Shown: positions 4,827 to 18,555 of the stretch, in pieces
Position numbering within the stretch: the first letter of the stretch is position 1
Layout: each line of letters begins with the position of its first letter
From: Actinomycetes bacterium
Lineage (GTDB): Bacteria > Actinomycetota > Actinomycetes > Nanopelagicales > Nanopelagicaceae
Length of the DNA: 64,000 nucleotides
Reading direction: 5' to 3'
Assembly: GCA_023252155.1 (NCBI GenBank)
Contig: JAHEXJ010000002.1
Location: forward strand, 1-64,000
Notes under the pieces: generated by a model
What the model was told of the DNA's origin: nothing
The model's database searches: none
The model's input: only the letters and a program-made list of their open reading frames with translations
Made by a program: the position numbers and the translations under genes

Positions 4827-6412
4827 TGGTCTCAGACGCTTTTCACATCTACGACACAACGTTGCGCGATGGCGCGCAACAAGAGGGGTTAAACCTTTCG
4901 GTTCATGACAAGTTGGCCATTGCGCGCCACTTAGATGACCTGGGTGTCGGTTTTATTGAAGGCGGCTGGCCGGGAGCAAATCCAAAGGACACCGAGTTCT
5001 TCGAACGCGCGAAGACTGAATTGCAGTTGAAGAATGCAACCTTTGTAGCCTTTGGTGCCACCAGGCGACCGAATGTGAACGCAGCCGATGATGTGTTGCT
5101 AAGCGCACTAAGAAATTCTGGAGCTCCTGCGGTGACACTCGTAGCTAAGGCTTATGACCGTCACGTTGACCTGGCACTTCGAACGACACTCGATGAAAAC
5201 CTTGCGATGATTGAAGACTCCATCAAGCATCTTCGAAGCGAAGGCCAACGTGTATTTCTAGACGCAGAACATTTCTTCGATGGTTACCGTTCAAATCGGG
5301 CATATGCGTTAGAAGTTGTTCGCGTCGCAGCCGAAGCCGGTGCCGACGTCGTTGCCTTGTGCGACACAAATGGCGGCATGCTTCCAGATGAACTCTCAGA
5401 TGTTGTTCACGATATTTTGAACAGCACTTCAGCACGTTTAGGAATTCACTGCCACAACGACACAGGATGCGCTGTTGCGAATTCGATGGCTGCTGTAGCG
5501 GCTGGTGCGACACATGTACAAGGGACTCTAAATGGGTACGGTGAACGAACAGGAAACGCCGACCTCGTGACGATTATCGCCAACCTCCAGTTGAAGAAAA
5601 AGCAACAGGTTTTGCCAACTGGCGCGTTGGAAGAAGCTTTTAGAATTTCGCACGCAGTAGCCGAAGTCACCAACGTGGCACCAAGTGCACGGCAACCCTA
5701 TGTTGGCTTTTCTGCTTTTGCCCATAAAGCAGGATTACATGCCAGCGCTATCAAGGTTGACCCGTCGCTCTATCAACATGAAGACCCTGCCTCGGTTGGC
5801 AACGACATGAGAATGCTCGTATCAGAGATGGCAGGGCGGGCATCAATTGAATTGAAATCTCAAGAACTCGGCATCGATCTAGGTGGCAACCGCGAAGTCA
5901 TCGGTCGCGTTGTCGAGCGAGTCAAAGAGATGGAAGCGCATGGATTCACCTTTGAGGCCGCAGATGCTTCCTTTGAATTGCTGCTTCGCGAGGAGGCAAC
6001 GGGGACTCGACCAAGTTTCTTCGCCATTGATCATTGGCTTACAACCGTCGAACGCGCTGCAGATCAGCGAATCGTCACGAAGGCAGAAATTTCTTTAACC
6101 GCGCATGGCGAGAAAATCGTTTGCAGCGGCGAAGGAAACGGTCCTGTTAACGCATTCGACAAAGCGCTGAGATCTGGACTCCTTCGCTTCTACCCAGAAT
6201 TGGCTCAACTTGAATTAACTGACTATAAGGTTCGTATTCTTGAGGGCCGCCTCGGTACTGGTGCTATTACCCGTGTTCTTGTCGAGACAAGTGATGGCAA
6301 AGCCGAATGGAACACAGTAGGTGTACACGAGAACGTCATCGCAGCCTCGGCAATGGCCCTCGAGGATGCAGTTACTTTCGGATTACTTAGGTTGGGGCGC
6401 ATTCCCGATTAA
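4826..6412 (+). CDS. cimA: (R)-citramalate synthase
   Basis: Condenses pyruvate and acetyl-CoA to citramalate, a threonine-independent entry to isoleucine. The HMGL-like TIM barrel opens with YDTTLRDGAQQEGLNL; EGGWPGANPKD and the metal-site HCHNDTGCAVAN follow; the C-terminal LeuA-type regulatory domain covers about residues 400-528. EGGWPG and DGAQQEG favour citramalate synthase over isopropylmalate synthase. ATG at 4826 overlaps the ilvE stop by one base; an upstream in-frame ATG at 4805 lies inside ilvE. It is the last gene of the operon and converges on the phosphatase gene 9 bp away; no terminator hairpin is seen between them. Confidence 0.92.
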   Translation: MVSDAFHIYDTTLRDGAQQEGLNLSVHDKLAIARHLDDLGVGFIEGGWPGANPKDTEFFERAKTELQLKNATFVAFGATRRPNVNAADDVLLSALRNSGAPAVTLVAKAYDRHVDLALRTTLDENLAMIEDSIKHLRSEGQRVFLDAEHFFDGYRSNRAYALEVVRVAAEAGADVVALCDTNGGMLPDELSDVVHDILNSTSARLGIHCHNDTGCAVANSMAAVAAGATHVQGTLNGYGERTGNADLVTIIANLQLKKKQQVLPTGALEEAFRISHAVAEVTNVAPSARQPYVGFSAFAHKAGLHASAIKVDPSLYQHEDPASVGNDMRMLVSEMAGRASIELKSQELGIDLGGNREVIGRVVERVKEMEAHGFTFEAADASFELLLREEATGTRPSFFAIDHWLTTVERAADQRIVTKAEISLTAHGEKIVCSGEGNGPVNAFDKALRSGLLRFYPELAQLELTDYKVRILEGRLGTGAITRVLVETSDGKAEWNTVGVHENVIAASAMALEDAVTFGLLRLGRIPD

Positions 6413-6421
6413 AGTTTGCTC

Positions 6422-7597
6422 TTATTCGCTCCTACGAATGATGAGAATCGTCGCGTCATCTGACGCCGAATGATCGGCTAGGGAGATAATCTCGTTAACC
6501 GCAAGCTGGACGGAATCTGAATAGCGAACGATGTTTTCCACTCGGTGGAGACCGCCGATGGTTCCATCAAATAAATCCAGAACACCGTCACTGATTGACA
6601 CGAGAGTGTCACCAGGTCCTAAATTCGTCTGGTGCTCTTCCCACGTTGTTTGGATTCCAGCCCCAAGTGGAAGATTGTCCGAGGTCAGTCGCACATTGGA
6701 TCCATCTGCTCTGTAAATAATTGACAAACCATGACCGGCATCGACGAAGCGAATACCGCCGCTTGCAATATCTAGACGTGCGTGAAAAAGGGTCACGAAA
6801 CTGCTCGTGCTATGGAGATCTCCTTCAAGAATGTCTGATGCAATTTCTACGGCCTTGATGATGCTGTGGTCGCGCGATCCGGCACGAAGGACGGCCCTGA
6901 CAGTTGCCGCAAGGATTGCGGCCGCCATGCCTTTGCCCATCACATCTGCGAGGGTGAATGCCTCGCCTTCGGAAATCGAATACCAATCGTAGAAATCTCC
7001 ACCGACTATTTGGACATGGGCGCACCCGCCGGCCACTTCGTATCCGTCGAGTACAAGGGGTTGTTTCGGAAGGAGGCTTCGTTGCACTCTCGCCGCCCGC
7101 GCAATTTCTTCTTCGGCGGTCATTTCGCTCTGAACCCAGAGTTTTAGTTCGTATAAGAGACTTTGTTCGTCTTCAGTGAGGATTCTCGGTTCGGTGTCGA
7201 AGACGCAGAGAGTCCCAATGAGTTGACCATCTTGCGCTTCGAGCGGGTACCCAGCGTAGAAACGAATGTGTGATTCGCCGGTCACAAGAGGGTTCTCCTT
7301 GAATCGCAGATCAAGCGAGGCATTGGGCACATCAAGCATCTCGGAAGTGCGAACTGCAAAATCGCTGAATGAGTCTTTGCGGGTCGGGTCGCTAATAGTC
7401 GTACCAAATCGAGATTTGATGAATACACGATCATCGAGGATGAGTGTGATGGCCGCTGATTTTGTTTTGAGCAGTTGTGCTGCAAGTCGAGTAATGCGAT
7501 CAAAGCGCTCTTCGGGTTCTTTGCTGAGTACGTTGAGCGCCTCAAGTGCGCGTCTCCTTGTTGCCTCAGTAAAGACGCCGTTTGCCGTATCGGTCAT
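6422..7597 (-). CDS. GAF-PP2C (SpoIIE/RsbU-type) phosphatase
   Basis: Probable RsbU-like serine phosphatase that would dephosphorylate a STAS antagonist in a partner-switching pathway. An N-terminal GAF-type sensor (about residues 20-155) is followed by a PP2C/SpoIIE domain with metal-binding aspartates in GGDFYDW, LADVMGKGMAAA, VDAGHG, ISDGVLD and SDDATILII. ATG at 7597 overlaps the stop of the upstream kinase gene (ATGA) with an AGAAG ribosome-binding sequence; a longer frame begins at a TTG at 7624. The signal sensed by the GAF domain is unknown. Last gene of a four-gene operon with a STAS protein, a kinase and a glycosyltransferase. Confidence 0.88.
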   Translation of the reverse strand: MTDTANGVFTEATRRRALEALNVLSKEPEERFDRITRLAAQLLKTKSAAITLILDDRVFIKSRFGTTISDPTRKDSFSDFAVRTSEMLDVPNASLDLRFKENPLVTGESHIRFYAGYPLEAQDGQLIGTLCVFDTEPRILTEDEQSLLYELKLWVQSEMTAEEEIARAARVQRSLLPKQPLVLDGYEVAGGCAHVQIVGGDFYDWYSISEGEAFTLADVMGKGMAAAILAATVRAVLRAGSRDHSIIKAVEIASDILEGDLHSTSSFVTLFHARLDIASGGIRFVDAGHGLSIIYRADGSNVRLTSDNLPLGAGIQTTWEEHQTNLGPGDTLVSISDGVLDLFDGTIGGLHRVENIVRYSDSVQLAVNEIISLADHSASDDATILIIRRSE

Positions 7598-8025
7598 GAG
7601 TGAATCTTCTTTGAAATTTTCCAAGTGTTTTTCCTGTCAGTATTTTCATAAGAGAAATGGTCAACGAGGGCGCGTACGAGAGGAATGCCGCGTCCGGATT
7701 CAGAAAATTCATCGGGCATCACGTGCTCGTCAAGCTCCAAGTCAGCTAAGTCTCCATTGTCTGTCATAGTCACCGACACTTTGTTGCTGTGAATTTCGAC
7801 GACGATTTCGCAGGAAATCCGACCAGTGACCTCCGAGTACAGGAATATGTTTGTGGCAAGCTCGATGATCGCCGTCTCGATGCTGTATCGATCGGCTGGG
7901 GCCAGTTGTGCATTTTCATCCCAGGTATTCTTCAAAAATTCGTGAACGTCAAAGATGTCGTCTGGAGGGACGATCAACGCTCTCTTATAAATTGTCATCT
8001 CAGTCACTAAACGCTGATTCTGCAT
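7594..8025 (-). CDS. Anti-sigma factor / serine kinase, RsbW-like (HATPase_c)
   Basis: Small GHKL ATPase of the RsbW/SpoIIAB group. In the family such proteins either bind a sigma factor or phosphorylate a STAS partner. The N-box is ETAIIELATN, and the ATP-lid boxes are TDNGD and SGRGIPLVRALVD near the C-terminus. Its 3' end overlaps the phosphatase start by 4 bp. ATG at 8025 overlaps the STAS gene by 26 bp; ATG at 7998 (MTIYKRAL), one base after the STAS stop, is an equally good start and gives 134 residues. No sigma factor gene is in the window, so its target is unknown. Confidence 0.85.
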   Translation of the reverse strand: MQNQRLVTEMTIYKRALIVPPDDIFDVHEFLKNTWDENAQLAPADRYSIETAIIELATNIFLYSEVTGRISCEIVVEIHSNKVSVTMTDNGDLADLELDEHVMPDEFSESGRGIPLVRALVDHFSYENTDRKNTWKISKKIHS

Positions 8026-8332
8026 TTTCGTACGCTTTAAGAACGCGGTCGATGTTTGTCAGCTCAAGAACCATTCTGACTTGCGCGGTGGGACATGCAA
8101 TTCTCAAGTCTCCGCCTGCCTGTCGTGCAGTTTTAAGACCATTGATGAGGGCGCCCAATCCCGAGGAATCGATAAAATCGACATCGGTCAAATCAATTGC
8201 CACTTTGTGGTTTCCGGCAGTCACCGTGGCATGAATCTCATCGCGAATTTTTGGGGCAGAGACCATATTGAGTTTGCCTTCAAGTTTGAGCACCGCGACA
8301 TGGTCTCCTACGATTTTCGTGTGGATCTTCAT
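8000..8332 (-). CDS. STAS-domain anti-sigma factor antagonist (RsbV-like)
   Basis: A 110-residue single-domain STAS protein. The phosphorylatable serine region is FIDSSGLGALINGL at about residues 54-68, and the size matches the SpoIIAA/RsbV family. In the family the unphosphorylated form captures the RsbW-type kinase. Its ATG overlaps the stop of the glycosyltransferase gene (ATGA), so all four proteins are translated from one message in the order enzyme, antagonist, kinase, phosphatase. Confidence 0.9.
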   Translation of the reverse strand: MKIHTKIVGDHVAVLKLEGKLNMVSAPKIRDEIHATVTAGNHKVAIDLTDVDFIDSSGLGALINGLKTARQAGGDLRIACPTAQVRMVLELTNIDRVLKAYENAESAFSD

Positions 8333-10275
8333 TTAACCAATTTCTCCTTTGATTGGTGACCACGGTAGCGAACTGCTGGAATAAGAATACTTAGGAGGCC
8401 AAGATCCCAAAGGACCCACGCGACATTTACGAGTGTCCCCACCGGTTCACTAAGACCCCTAGAAAGGCGCAAGATGCCGACTCCTGCGGCAAAGATGAGG
8501 ATTATCGCCACGGCAATTTGATGTTTTATTAATCCCCATTCATTTCGACCACTTTCACCTCTTTTCGGAGTGACAACGAAGGCAAGTGGATGATGGAAAT
8601 AGACATTTCTTACAGCACTTGTTACCGCTTTTAACCAGATAGGGAAGAGCGCGAGGCTGTACTGCTGGCCTCTCCAGGTGGAGATTCCCTTGCTGACAAC
8701 GAGGAAGAGAAGTTGGTTGGCGACCATGAACGGGATGAAGTGATAAAAGTATGTAGTTGAAAAAGACTTGACTGGGAGAATACCGAAACATAGATAAACG
8801 ACAGGCGCCACGAAATATACGACGGCGGCGAAACCGCTTAGATAACTCCACATCGTCGAGAAATACATAATCTTCTGTGCAAATGTAAGGCCCCGTTGCA
8901 GCAACGGGTTTTCACGGAGCATTACCTGCATGGTGCCTTGTGCCCAACGGAGGCGTTGCTTCAACATGCTGCTCAAATCTTCTGGAGCCAAGCCGATGGC
9001 AAGAACTTCGTGGTGGTAAACGCTCTTCCAGCCCATGCCGTGCAATCGCATCGATGTAGCCATATCTTCTGTAACCGAGATTGTTGCTAGAGGCATGAGC
9101 GGCTGCGCTTCTCCAGGGCGATCGACATCCAGGGACCTAAGAAGAGTCGCTACCGCCTGGCAGGCGCCTAATGGCGAAAATTCGCGCGAAGATAAAAGGT
9201 CTGTTGTCTTTTCGACGTCAAGAATCACATCCCACTCGTCGTTCGTGACAGTATGAATTTCACCGATTGCGGCAAGGTCTTCCTTCATAAGGCTGAGATG
9301 CGATGAGACCATGCTTTTGGATACGTCGGAAATGCGCTGTTGAAGTGCATATGTGGCATCGGCGATTGTTTTGCCACTTGCAATGTCGTGGCGCGCATTA
9401 GATATCGCTACTTCAACAGACTTAAGAGCTTCTTGAATTTCCGGGGCATCGGCAACGGTCGTGCGAAGGGTTCGAAGAAGAATTCGGTCAGCGCTGCGAA
9501 GTGCTTCCCGGACCGCGATCTCGAGTTCGACCACATAACGCTTGAGTCCCAACTGCATAAGGGCATCCCTGCGAAGGATTGCATTTGAACCACAGAAGAA
9601 CGCGGCATTCCACGCATTCTTGCCCTGTTGGATTGGTCCGTAGAAAAGCGGTGCCTGGCTGCCGAGTGGGTCATACGTTGTGACATTGCCAAACCACTGT
9701 GGGGTCTGAACGAGTGCAACTTTGGGATCCTCGAAATAACTAAGTGTGTGGTCGAGGATTTCAGGGTAGGGAACTTGATCGGCGTCGAGGATTAATAAAA
9801 ACTCACCGCTTGTTTGCATTAAAGCATTGTTGAGATTTCCGGCTTTGGCGTGAAGAGGCTGGTTTGCCCAATTCGCGCCTCTCGTTATGTAGCCAACGCC
9901 AATTTCTTCAGCGGCTGAGCGCATTTCTTTACGAGCACCGTCATCCAAGATCCATGTTGTGTGCGGGTACCGAATTGCCTTGGCTGCCTTTGCGGTGGCA
10001 ATCACAAGATCTATAGGTTCGTTGTATGTGGTTATGAAAACGTCAACTGAAATGCCGTCTCGCGGGGGATGAATCGTGATTTTTGGATCGGCTCTCCAGA
10101 TGGTGAATCCAAAGAAGAGAACATCAATAAAGTTGTAAGTCTCGGCGATTACGAGAGGGACTGCGATCCACCAATTTGTCCAATTGAGAGAAAAAGACCA
10201 ACGCCACAAAATGTAATTAAGGCCGAGAGCAAAGGTAATGACCACATATACCCGTATCGCCACATTCCGACTCAC
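8329..10275 (-). CDS. Membrane glycosyltransferase family 2 (cellulose-synthase-like) with an inserted domain
   Basis: Probable processive polysaccharide synthase in the cytoplasmic membrane. Residues from the GTG at 10275: two N-terminal membrane segments (about 5-60), GT2 core with WILDDG (111-112), DADQ (164-166), TED (402-404) and QRLRWAQGT (440-448), then about six membrane segments. These are the D,D,D,Q(R/Q)xRW signatures of BcsA-like enzymes. Residues about 244-397 are a helix-rich insert between the SNAILRR and TED motifs that ordinary BcsA lacks. No C-terminal PilZ domain is seen. The GTG at 10275 is preceded by GAGGAGG five bases upstream; an open frame runs on to 10446 but would overlap xerC. 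The product polymer is unknown. Confidence 0.85.
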   Translation of the reverse strand: MSRNVAIRVYVVITFALGLNYILWRWSFSLNWTNWWIAVPLVIAETYNFIDVLFFGFTIWRADPKITIHPPRDGISVDVFITTYNEPIDLVIATAKAAKAIRYPHTTWILDDGARKEMRSAAEEIGVGYITRGANWANQPLHAKAGNLNNALMQTSGEFLLILDADQVPYPEILDHTLSYFEDPKVALVQTPQWFGNVTTYDPLGSQAPLFYGPIQQGKNAWNAAFFCGSNAILRRDALMQLGLKRYVVELEIAVREALRSADRILLRTLRTTVADAPEIQEALKSVEVAISNARHDIASGKTIADATYALQQRISDVSKSMVSSHLSLMKEDLAAIGEIHTVTNDEWDVILDVEKTTDLLSSREFSPLGACQAVATLLRSLDVDRPGEAQPLMPLATISVTEDMATSMRLHGMGWKSVYHHEVLAIGLAPEDLSSMLKQRLRWAQGTMQVMLRENPLLQRGLTFAQKIMYFSTMWSYLSGFAAVVYFVAPVVYLCFGILPVKSFSTTYFYHFIPFMVANQLLFLVVSKGISTWRGQQYSLALFPIWLKAVTSAVRNVYFHHPLAFVVTPKRGESGRNEWGLIKHQIAVAIILIFAAGVGILRLSRGLSEPVGTLVNVAWVLWDLGLLSILIPAVRYRGHQSKEKLVK

Positions 10276-10280
10276 GCGGT

Positions 10281-10287
10281 CCTCCTC
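10281..10287 (-). promoter_or_regulatory. Ribosome-binding site that sets the glycosyltransferase start
   Basis: On the minus strand GAGGAGG lies five bases before the GTG at 10275. It is the best Shine-Dalgarno match upstream of the first membrane segment and supports the 648-residue product over longer in-frame versions. The gap between the two divergent starts (10276-10355) also holds a 10-bp palindrome, GTTGGCCAAC, at 10315-10324. Confidence 0.6.
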
Positions 10288-10355
10288 GTCCCTTTTGATT
10301 AGAAGTTTAAGTGCGTTGGCCAACAAAAGGGGAGTCTCCTCAGTAACCTTGTTAT

Positions 10356-11273
10356 GTGATGCCAGCCTTGTTTCCGGACGTTTCTGCGGCTTTTGAGCGC
10401 CATCTCTGCGTGGAGCGCAATCTCTCTCGTCACAGCGTTCGCGCATATCTTGGGGATTTGAACAGTTTGATTCATCATCTCGAAACCCTGGGTCTTTCCG
10501 AGATTACCAATCTGGAGCTTTCGCACATTCGATCATGGCTGGCGACGATGCAAATTAAGGGCGGAGCTCGCACATCTCTATCAAGGCGTGCTGTATCGAT
10601 CCGGTTATTTACTAAATGGGCTTACAAAACTGGTTTAACGGCAACAGATGTCGGATTTTCTCTGGCGATACCAAAAGCCCATCGGACGTTGCCGGACGTT
10701 TTAAATGTTCCTAATGCTTTATTGGCAATGCAAGCCCTTGCCACTCGTGTTGGGGAGGAAGAAACCCCGGTCGCTCTTCGTGACTGCGCGATGGTCGAAG
10801 TTCTCTATGCCAGTGGGGCACGAGTTGCTGAATTGTGTGGATTGGATTTCGACGACGTGGATTACGAAAGACAGACGATTCGAGTACTTGGCAAGGGCAA
10901 TAAAGAACGGACCATTCCTATTGGCAATCCCGCAATGAGTGCCTTGAAAGCCTGGCTGGGAGATGGACGTCCATCCCTCGCGTCGAAATCCTCTGAAAAC
11001 GCGGTCTTCATCGGGGTTCGGGGCCGGCGCATCGATCAACGTACTGTTCGGACCGTGGTCTACGAAGCTTTGTCAGCCCTTGAAGGAGTCGAGCGAATGG
11101 GACCTCATGGGCTTCGCCATTCGGCCGCCACTCATTTGCTCGAAGGCGGTGCTGACCTTCGAACTGTTCAAGAAATTCTGGGCCATGCCTCCCTTGCTAC
11201 GACGCAGATTTATACCCACGTATCGACCGAAAGGCTCCAAAAAGCCTTCAAGCAGGCTCATCCCAGGGCCTGA
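10356..11273 (+). CDS. xerC: Tyrosine recombinase XerC/XerD family
   Basis: Site-specific recombinase, 305 residues, expected to resolve chromosome dimers at dif. An N-terminal SAM-like core-binding domain (about 5-90) precedes the catalytic domain with Arg in SGARVAELCGLD, Lys in LGKGNKERTIPI, HGLRHSAATHLLEGG, GHASLATTQIY and the nucleophilic Tyr in IYTHVS. The start is GTG at 10356 or ATG at 10359; neither has a strong ribosome-binding site. Its place just before rpsB is common in actinobacteria and argues for the housekeeping enzyme rather than a mobile-element integrase. No dif-like site was recognised. Confidence 0.9.
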   Translation: MMPALFPDVSAAFERHLCVERNLSRHSVRAYLGDLNSLIHHLETLGLSEITNLELSHIRSWLATMQIKGGARTSLSRRAVSIRLFTKWAYKTGLTATDVGFSLAIPKAHRTLPDVLNVPNALLAMQALATRVGEEETPVALRDCAMVEVLYASGARVAELCGLDFDDVDYERQTIRVLGKGNKERTIPIGNPAMSALKAWLGDGRPSLASKSSENAVFIGVRGRRIDQRTVRTVVYEALSALEGVERMGPHGLRHSAATHLLEGGADLRTVQEILGHASLATTQIYTHVSTERLQKAFKQAHPRA

Positions 11274-16632: not shown

Positions 16633-16661
16633 TTGTCTTTTACGACTTTTACGTCTAAAAT
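16633..16661 (+). promoter_or_regulatory. Candidate housekeeping promoter of the collagen-like gene
   Basis: TTGTCT (16633-16638) and TAAAAT (16656-16661) are separated by exactly 17 bp, close to the primary-sigma consensus. They lie about 60 bp before the ATG at 16720, which has GGAGAGG as ribosome-binding site. Confidence 0.5.
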
Positions 16662-16719
16662 CCCAGCAATATGTAAGTGTGATTCATTTTCCCCACGCTT
16701 ACCGGAGAGGCAAACTGTC

Positions 16720-18555
16720 ATGACCCGCAGGCATTGGACGCTACGTCTCTCGGTGACCTCGTTATTATCACTGAGTCTGGGGATGACCTTCCTTTTACCA
16801 TCTCTTGCCTCTGTCAGTGCGGCTGCAGGATTTAGAAATGACGCGCCCCTAGGGCCGCTTGTGCTCGGATCATCGACAACGACCACGACGACAGTAAAAA
16901 AGACGGTTAAGTTGAATGGTCCAATTGTCCTCACTGGATCGTCAAGTTCAACGCAAACTAGCCGTTCCGGATCGGCTGCCCAGCCTCTGGGGCCGATAAC
17001 GATTAGCCAAAATAATTCGACAGCCACACAGACGGCTCCCACGCAACAGCAGTCATCATCGTCGGCAACGACAACAACCGAAGTCGTTAATTTGAGTGGG
17101 CCAATCCAAATTAGTAACAGCGGATCTGTGGAAACGGCGGGTCTTGCAAAGACAATTGTCGGAGCGACGGGTGAGGCCGGCGCTGCAGGTGCTACCGGTG
17201 CTGCTGGTCCTGCCGGCGCTACTGGTGAGCAGGGCCCTATTGGATTTACTGGAGCGACTGGTGCTGCTGGTCCTGCCGGCGCTACTGGTGCCCAAGGCGC
17301 CAAGGGTGATACCGGCGCTACTGGTGCCCAAGGCCCTATTGGATTTACTGGAGCGACCGGTGCCCAAGGCGCCAAGGGTGATACCGGCGCTACTGGTGCC
17401 CAAGGCGCCAAGGGTGATACCGGCGCTCAAGGTGCCCAAGGCTCCCAAGGCGCCAAGGGTGATACCGGCGCTACTGGTGCCCAAGGCGCCAAGGGTGATA
17501 CCGGCGCTCAGGGTCTTCAGGGTCTTCAGGGGCCAAAGGGTGATACCGGCGCTACTGGTGCCCAAGGCGCCAAGGGTGATACCGGCGCTACTGGTGCCCA
17601 AGGCACCCAAGGAATTCAAGGCGCCAAGGGTGATACCGGCGCTACTGGTGCCCAAGGCGCCCAAGGAATTCAAGGAATACCAGGCGTCGAGGGTCCTGCA
17701 GGACCTGCTGGCCCTGCAGGCGCAAGAGGAACTTTAATATTAAGTGGGGCGGGTGCGCCTTCATCGACTCAGGGGTCAGTTGGAGATTTCTATATTGATC
17801 TGTCAACCACGACGTTATATGGGCCAAAAACTTCTGCTGGTTGGTCGGTTGATATCTCCTTAATTGGCAAAACGGGCGCCGCTGGCGCGCAAGGTCCACA
17901 AGGTTTGACAGGCGCGACAGGCGCGACAGGCGCGACGGGCGCGACAGGCGCGACAGGCGCGACGGGTGCCACTGGCTCTCAAGGTCCACAGGGAATTCAA
18001 GGCCCCGTTGGTCCCAAGGGCGATGTTGGCCCCATTGGGCCTGCGGGTAATCAAGGTCCACAGGGTTCCTCAGGTGCCCAAGGTATTCAAGGAAATACCG
18101 GTGCGACAGGTGCCACTGGTGCTCAAGGTATTCAAGGAAATACCGGTGCGACAGGTGCAACTGGAGCCACGGGTGATACCGGCGCTACCGGTGCTCAAGG
18201 TATTCAAGGAAATACCGGTGCCACGGGAGCCACCGGTGCTCAAGGTCTAAAGGGAGATACTGGTTTGCAGGGACCCATGGGTCCCCAAGGTCCTCAAGGT
18301 CTCCAGGGCGCTCAAGGTGCACAAGGTGCACAAGGTGCACAAGGTCCAAAGGGTGATACCGGTGCCGCGGGCCCAGCCGGCCCAGCAGGTCCAGCGGGAG
18401 CTAGTGGAACCGCTGTTCCAGTCTGCGTTACTCCTGGTGGCAATGTCACGTGGGGCGCATGCCATGCGGGCGGCGGAGACAACAACAGCGGCGGTTCCTC
18501 AGATAGTGGATCTTCGAATCAGGGGACCACTTACTACATGCTTATCAAGTCATAG
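16720..18555 (+). CDS. Secreted collagen-like repeat protein
   Basis: A 611-residue exported protein. The N-terminus (MTRRHW, then a hydrophobic stretch ending near SVSAAAG) is a Sec signal peptide. A Ser/Thr-rich region follows to about residue 147. Gly-X-Y triplets run from about 148 to 336 and from 386 to 561, rich in GATGAQ and GAKGDT. Between them lies a non-collagen spacer (about 337-385) with [16 protein letters not shown], a module seen between collagen repeats of phage-tail and surface proteins. The C-terminus is Gly/Ser-rich with two cysteines (VCVTP, WGACH). No cell-wall sorting motif is seen. Likely a surface or matrix fibre; partner unknown. ATG at 16720 chosen over 16633 because it directly precedes the signal peptide and has a ribosome-binding site. 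Confidence 0.85.
17296..17643 (+). repeat. Tandem DNA repeat in collagen-like gene, block 1
   Basis: The 24-bp unit starting GGCGCCAAGGGTGATACC (encoding GAKGDTGA) occurs about seven times, nearly identical at DNA level and separated by multiples of 9 bp. Conservation of synonymous positions points to recent duplication by recombination or slippage. Confidence 0.85.
17911..17964 (+). repeat. Tandem 9-bp repeat in collagen-like gene, block 2
   Basis: Six consecutive 9-bp units, GGCGCGACA or GGCGCGACG, encode (Gly-Ala-Thr)6. The units differ only in the last base. A typical slippage-prone array; copy-number change stays in frame. Confidence 0.85.
18079..18221 (+). repeat. Spaced repeat in collagen-like gene, block 3
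   Basis: A 26-bp unit beginning CAAGGTATTCAAGGAAATAC (encoding QGIQGNTGA) occurs three times with identical sequence, at about 18079, 18124 and 18196, separated by variable GAT triplets. Confidence 0.75.

Follow-up and report, generated by a model that had tools for sequence, protein, structure and literature searches.

A helical insert at the catalytic core of actinobacterial cellulose-synthase-like enzymes is a candidate docking domain for a co-encoded partner-switching module

Introduction

The bacterial cellulose synthase BcsA carries a C-terminal PilZ domain with a regulatory role, and the acceptor motif of its catalytic domain is closely followed by the catalytic TED motif, with about five residues between the matched ends (chain 332 and chain 338) in the R. 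sphaeroides enzyme (4hg6). Large inserts at this point are already known, however, since the class-specific region of plant CesA proteins is located there; for soybean CesA, a protein–protein role is reported for this region (PMC12077881).

Phosphorylation-dependent partner switching by STAS proteins has also been connected to the control of exopolysaccharides. Several non-classical STAS proteins, such as SypA and HmpV, are reported to control biofilm formation or polysaccharide production through a direct target still to be identified, and for V. fischeri, R. capsulatus and N. punctiforme it is likewise proposed that unphosphorylated STAS proteins have targets of this kind (PMC8256260). In the open-licence literature we found, judging by the entries listed, no paper that combines STAS proteins or partner switching with a glycosyltransferase or cellulose synthase. 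All parts of the system described here are of known kinds, but their combination, a BcsA-like synthase that lacks PilZ and is tied by its helical insert and gene order to a complete partner switch, did not turn up there.

Here we analyse such a synthase from an actinobacterium of the family Nanopelagicaceae, encoded in a stretch of 64,000 nucleotides (assembly GCA_023252155.1, contig JAHEXJ010000002.1, positions 1 to 64,000), referred to as the window. From this DNA alone, the original prediction had proposed that a long insert between acceptor motif and TED, in an enzyme without visible PilZ domain, would lie close to the active site and gating loop and may be a regulatory docking domain.

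Results

The synthase gene is located on the minus strand (8332..10275, followed by its stop codon at 8329-8331), with the plus-strand frame of 8329-10275 being broken by many stops. The longer minus-strand open reading frame (8329..10446), which would overlap xerC (10356-11273, plus strand), yields a translation of 705 residues, P0001. A start at the GTG at 10275, i.e. residue 58 of P0001, agrees with the starts of homologues and gives a protein of 648 residues, as originally assumed. This protein is a cellulose-synthase-like family 2 glycosyltransferase (GT2) matching PF03552, PF00535 and PF13632, and it scores 340 bits with the CelA model TIGR03030, i.e. under the equivalog cut-off of 699.1. 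The AlphaFold model of the whole enzyme (mean pLDDT 79, pTM 0.75) matches BcsA of E. coli and Rhodobacter, with E. coli BcsA being the best hit (Foldseek E 1.1e-25). In the acceptor motif FFCGSNAILRR (9568..9600, minus strand; P0001 283-293), the F, C, G, S, N, A, R and R columns are invariant among 42 homologues, and so are TED (9064..9072, minus strand; P0001 459-461), QRLRW, which represents QxxRW (8944..8958, minus strand), and the F, V, T and K of FVVTPK (8563..8580, minus strand), which matches the FxVTxK motif of the gating loop. Altogether, the DDG, DxD, FCGS, TED, QxxRW and FxVTxK residues show no variation across these 42 sequences. The protein is a membrane enzyme whose probable function is to make and export a sugar polymer. 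Genes for family 26 glycoside hydrolases and, in L141, also for a family 16 glycoside hydrolase with a ricin-type lectin domain occur near several of the synthases (L141:1285-2592 and 5228-6487, L074:2502-4625 and, with a match under the cut-off, L099:4107-5225); these neighbours could point to a product of the mannan or mixed-linkage glucan type. Elsewhere in the window, a 640-residue protein with long collagen-like Gly-x-y repeats is encoded on the plus strand (16633-18555), in what is a small actinobacterial genome.

The absence of PilZ is borne out more widely: none of the 42 insert-bearing synthases matches it, and the host genome (84% complete) contains neither a PilZ nor a BcsB match and a single GGDEF protein. 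Among ten insert-less synthases, PilZ is found in four at E<=0.01, with two of these over the cut-off (L100, L101). By eye, the insert-less synthases L100, L102, L103 and L104, all from the same genus, seem to have two PilZ-like C-terminal stretches, for which the Pfam score is weak or nil.

The insert itself comprises 154 residues (9085..9546, minus strand) located at P0001 301-454, which corresponds to residues 244-397 in the numbering from the GTG start. D, E, K and R contribute 27% of its residues as compared with 15% in the remainder of the protein, and AlphaFold places helices at 236-272, 278-299, 304-341, 354-362 and 368-380 (GTG numbering) in the whole enzyme. When folded alone, the insert forms similar helices, three long and two short (pLDDT 76). 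The originally described stretch of about 150 charged and helix-rich residues between FFCGSxxxLRR and TED is thus confirmed, and so is its contrast to the short gap of BcsA-like enzymes: RR and TED are 14 residues apart in those related synthases without insert whose motif could be parsed (L005, L007, L008, L009), whereas this RR-to-TED spacing is 162-169 in 81 of 84 insert-bearing rows, a set that counts the window copy (L001) as well as two duplicates (L017=L002, L033=L003). The remaining three rows (L035, L041, L059) feature a chance earlier TED with an unchanged distance to QxxRW (203). Because its length is near constant across these rows and a helical bundle is predicted, the insert is to be regarded as a genuine, modelled folded domain. 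It is hardly conceivable that we are dealing with a misread motif, as had originally been allowed for, or with an assembly error, a frameshift or a chance feature, because the same insert with near-constant length recurs in over 80 loci that were assembled independently of each other and acceptor motif and TED flank it in every aligned row.

Within the insert, two blocks stand out, P0001 383-410 with a conserved DL..I (9217..9300, minus strand) and P0001 419-432 (REFSPLGACQAV; family consensus REWSPLGALESV; 9151..9192, minus strand), with R421, S424, P425, L426 and A428 being conserved in 93-100% of 42 inserts. In Pfam these inserts obtained scattered weak matches only, and comparisons with the PDB by sequence and by Foldseek likewise produced no relative, with nothing at E<=0.001 in Foldseek (best E 0.24); this does not make the fold a new one. 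TraB_PrgY_gumN (12 of 42 inserts at E<=1, best 1.1e-4) and RRF (weak matches for seven of 42) were taken as helical noise, the best PDB sequence match (E 0.052) was an unrelated protein, and the VIA rows were generic helical bundles with Z at most 9.1.

By its position, the insert could be an assembly arm through which copies of the synthase are linked to each other or positioned at the membrane, with the switch described below acting elsewhere on the enzyme or on its expression. Helical bundles often self-associate, and the insertion point is the same as in plant CesA, where the corresponding gap spans about 117 residues in cotton CesA7 (7d5k, 620 and 738). The plant region is reported to form a hook required for the interaction of isoforms (PMC12077881). 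However, 27 PDB sequence matches of the insert at E<=10 include no plant CesA, and neither the association with a four-gene regulatory module nor the shrinkage of the insert at loci without kinase, both reported below, would be expected for a pure assembly arm, which we therefore consider a rather improbable explanation.

The insert is not a peculiarity of a single enzyme. A species-genome scan returned 327 relatives, and the best 80 of these 327, which were kept and read, come from Arthrobacter, Cryobacterium, Kocuria, Nocardioides, Cellulomonas, Rhodococcus, Geodermatophilus and other genera. Judged by sequence, the insert marks a large and widespread PilZ-less subfamily of actinobacterial cellulose-synthase-like synthases. 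In the host genus (21 genomes including the host), the insert-bearing type is found in three genomes, the insert-less type in four and both together in none (E<=1e-20). The insert profile hits 46 of 245 genomes of the family to which the L025 genome belongs and at least two of 396 genomes sampled across the phylum (the host and G085), with at most eight first-look candidates scored in the genomes listed. It has no match on viral contigs, and the plasmid matches among those listed are BcsA-like enzymes and a single Nostoc case (see below). A variant with a spacing of 171-172 residues (L144, L145, L148, L153) is encoded by a solitary synthase gene, with a phosphatase–STAS–kinase trio elsewhere in all four genomes.

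Directly 3' of the synthase in the window, three further minus-strand genes encode a complete partner switch. In two of the loci analysed, the synthase and STAS genes share one reading frame. In the window, the first of the three, with an ATG overlapping the synthase stop codon, specifies a STAS protein of the anti-anti-sigma type (8000..8332; PF01740, 4.8e-21; TIGR00377, 76.7 bits over a cut-off of 53.45) with a DSSG motif whose Ser56 is encoded at 8165-8167. It is followed by the gene for an RsbW/SpoIIAB-like ATPase, presumed to be a serine kinase (7594..8025; PF13581 HATPase_c_2, 2.3e-12, over cut-off), and by that for a GAF-SpoIIE phosphatase of the PP2C type (6422..7624; PF07228, 5.1e-30; PF01590, 8.2e-13). 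Phosphatase, STAS and kinase genes occur at the same locus in 81 of 84 insert-bearing rows, with the phosphatase gene being mostly upstream in Arthrobacter-like loci; two further rows have STAS and kinase without phosphatase, and in the last one (L025) the STAS gene is found unlinked in the genome, beside phosphatase and kinase (L193). A second draw of 49 long-insert loci from one family, with taxa overlapping the first set, contained all four genes together in 39 cases, with the phosphatase alone missing in three, one locus cut by a contig end (L190) and six with the glycosyltransferase only; STAS adjoins the synthase in 43 of the 49. Of those six, four have an unlinked phosphatase–STAS–kinase trio in the genome, L169 has STAS and kinase just beyond the fetched stretch and L154 is an additional, frameshifted copy whose genome also contains an intact module. 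By contrast, no STAS, kinase or SpoIIE gene neighbours any of ten insert-less synthases for which wider flanks were inspected, some of these flanks being truncated at contig ends.

The aspartates of GGDFYD and of ADVMGKG are present in 78 of 79 phosphatases, and DSSG (once DSSA) in all aligned STAS rows except for three short-insert loci. In the kinase homologues, Glu and Asn of the N-box as well as both glycines of GRG are found in 79 of 79. The aspartate of the G1-box, which the window kinase possesses, occurs in 31 of 79 loci, with alanine in 37, and the D.G pattern is likewise found in 31 of 79. Loci without this aspartate may have weak ATP binding or a protein that works without phosphorylation, and phosphorylation may be impaired in loci of the Arthrobacter type. 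Orthologues such as L027-L032 and L034, which have lost the G1-box aspartate and kept N-box and GRG, are possible pseudokinases with a retained docking role.

In most cases, it is sigma factors that are controlled by STAS, HATPase and SpoIIE proteins (PMC8256260), and the module could thus be an ordinary sigma-factor switch beside the synthase by chance, with the insert being a lineage-specific ornament. Around the module, however, no other gene family is present in more than 10 of 42 loci, with the largest such cluster resembling spurious frames, and no sigma factor was recognized in the conserved cluster, as judged from shared gene families. Moreover, a STAS protein beside a short-insert synthase without kinase (see below) would have no evident function, and the near-constant length of the insert speaks against an ornament. 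We regard this explanation as improbable.

The strongest evidence is provided by a natural deletion within the insert, found when short-insert paralogues were sought in 198 genomes of one genus. The resulting 20 loci are 91-100% identical and form a single clade. Their RR-to-TED spacing is 121 or 122 in all 20 cases, i.e. about 42 insert residues are lost, which, in an alignment of four short rows with uncertain gap borders, correspond to both blocks described above (P0001 383-410 and 419-432) and thus include D390, L391, I394, R421, S424, P425, L426 and A428, which belong to its most strongly conserved inner positions. Kinase and phosphatase genes are missing from all 20 loci, yet each of the 20 has a STAS gene just downstream of the synthase. 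These STAS proteins obtain only 23-31 bits with the module profile, and Pfam confirms the assignment for the one tested. In all 18 that could be parsed (L215 and L222 were not), DSSG is altered to GASG or AASG, i.e. its first serine, which is aligned with the serine that is phosphorylated in RsbV and SpoIIAA, is replaced by alanine. With a dN/dS of 0.23 for STAS (152 pairs) and 0.06 for the short-insert synthase (153 pairs), this STAS protein is, on codon evidence, under purifying selection. As the usual phosphorylatable serine is absent and no kinase is encoded next to it, while selection keeps STAS behind the synthase, the kinase is probably not the only client of STAS, the simplest further candidate being the synthase. 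As part of the insert has disappeared along with the kinase, the motifs missing from the short form may be used by the kinase or by the phospho-dependent step. The three genomes in which the short-insert paralogue was first found also have a normal module elsewhere and hence a kinase in trans.

Covariation beyond the shared core was assessed by a partial Mantel test with 52 dereplicated of 79 loci. Partial correlation with the insert was 0.42 for the kinase, 0.18 for STAS and 0.02 for the phosphatase, with the STAS–kinase pair giving 0.40 as a positive control; STAS correlated with the N-terminal catalytic and C-terminal parts of the synthase at 0.157 and 0.38, respectively. An explanation in line with these numbers is that it is the kinase rather than STAS that docks on the insert: the RsbW-like protein would keep the synthase inactive until unphosphorylated STAS removes it, with the synthase being a stand-in for a sigma factor. 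The insert–kinase value is the highest obtained with the insert and on a par with the control, the DL..I and REWSPLGALESV motifs are absent where the locus has no kinase, and N-box and GRG are intact even in kinases without the G1-box aspartate. However, insert and kinase both evolve fast, and fast-evolving parts alone can become correlated once the slow core is saturated, so that we give the covariation result little weight beyond keeping this explanation alive. Since it also gives no reason for the selective maintenance of STAS in all 20 loci that lack a nearby kinase, we consider it possible but unlikely.

Discussion

An important question is how a synthase without PilZ domain may be controlled. 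A conserved helical domain next to the active site, with a complete phosphorylation switch encoded alongside, suggests that this switch acts directly on the enzyme rather than on genes. With the synthase as the output of the switch, the insert would be the obvious docking place. Our preferred explanation, to which we give slightly better than even chances, is that the insert is a docking domain through which partner switching controls the synthase post-translationally. It is favoured because the insert goes along with the STAS, kinase and phosphatase genes, because its bearers are free of PilZ and because it is shortened where kinase and phosphatase are absent. The docking function originally proposed is thus the one that fits best, even though the insert turned out to be neither a one-off, being shared by a large subfamily, nor the first large insert at this site.

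In such a mechanism, the insert would take over the regulatory role held by PilZ in BcsA and would be worked by the RsbU/V/W-type switch encoded with the synthase. The GAF-SpoIIE phosphatase would sense a signal, upon which STAS would become dephosphorylated; unphosphorylated STAS would then bind to the insert of the synthase, or close to it, and thereby allow synthesis, until the RsbW-like kinase rephosphorylates STAS. Via the insert face with DL..I and the second conserved block, the kinase might compete for the place of STAS or hold the synthase off. We infer physical binding, its direction, i.e. activation, and the assignment of partners to helices, and the insert could be contacted by STAS, the kinase or both.

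Several observations stand against this explanation. The subfamily is one clade, as are the short paralogues, and each association may therefore rest on a single event. The insert–STAS correlation is barely above that of STAS with the N-terminal part and below that with the C-terminal part of the synthase. About half of the loci have a kinase without G1-box aspartate. In a Nostoc locus (L099), STAS, SpoIIE and HATPase genes neighbour a synthase without the actinobacterial insert, so that a link to STAS does not require this insert. Finally, those genomes with short paralogues that were examined still have a kinase in trans, encoded in a normal module.

More generally, there might be a class of polysaccharide synthases in Actinomycetes that are switched post-translationally by stress-type partner switching, with the synthase replacing a sigma factor as the client, the insert being the client domain and the short-insert paralogue being locked to a permanently unphosphorylated STAS subunit, a proposal about which we are evenly divided. 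If true, a protein-phosphorylation switch can replace c-di-GMP/PilZ control of a BcsA-like synthase, and an insertion point that serves protein contacts in plant cellulose synthases serves regulation in bacteria. With a STAS gene tied to one enzyme over many genera, and with a natural deletion at hand, a direct target of STAS becomes testable in culturable Arthrobacter, Kocuria and Cryobacterium.

Among known systems, BcsA (TIGR03030) shares with the window synthase its catalytic domain, membrane helices, fold and the full set of DDG, DxD, FFCGS, TED, QxxRW and FxVTxK motifs, but differs by its PilZ domain, its short acceptor-to-TED gap and the BcsB partner missing from the 84% complete host genome, and the window synthase stays under the TIGR03030 cut-off. 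The plant class-specific region is likewise a large insert at this insertion point, but has no detectable sequence relation to the bacterial insert; it is described as largely disordered and is mostly unresolved, whereas the bacterial insert is predicted to be folded. RsbU/RsbV/RsbW-type switches (SpoIIAA/SpoIIAB, SypA/SypE, HmpU/V/W) have the same SpoIIE phosphatase, DSSG-containing STAS protein and HATPase_c_2 kinase, but in the module described here the constant partner gene encodes a membrane glycosyltransferase. A further related system, a single case, is the synthase on a plasmid of Nostoc sp. UHCC 0926 (NZ_CP117772; L099:6908-8917), which is 43% identical over the matched pieces, contains the motif LFYGPLQQGK and has STAS, SpoIIE and HATPase genes no more than about 6 kb away. 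It differs by a short spacing to TED and by an insert of its own, about 110 residues between DDG and HAKAGN, the place of the plant conserved region, and is possibly a parallel solution in cyanobacteria. In Anabaena, all4160 is cited as a glycosyltransferase with an N-terminal STAS domain (PMC8256260) and thus, by this description, resembles the system reported here in joining STAS to a glycosyltransferase.
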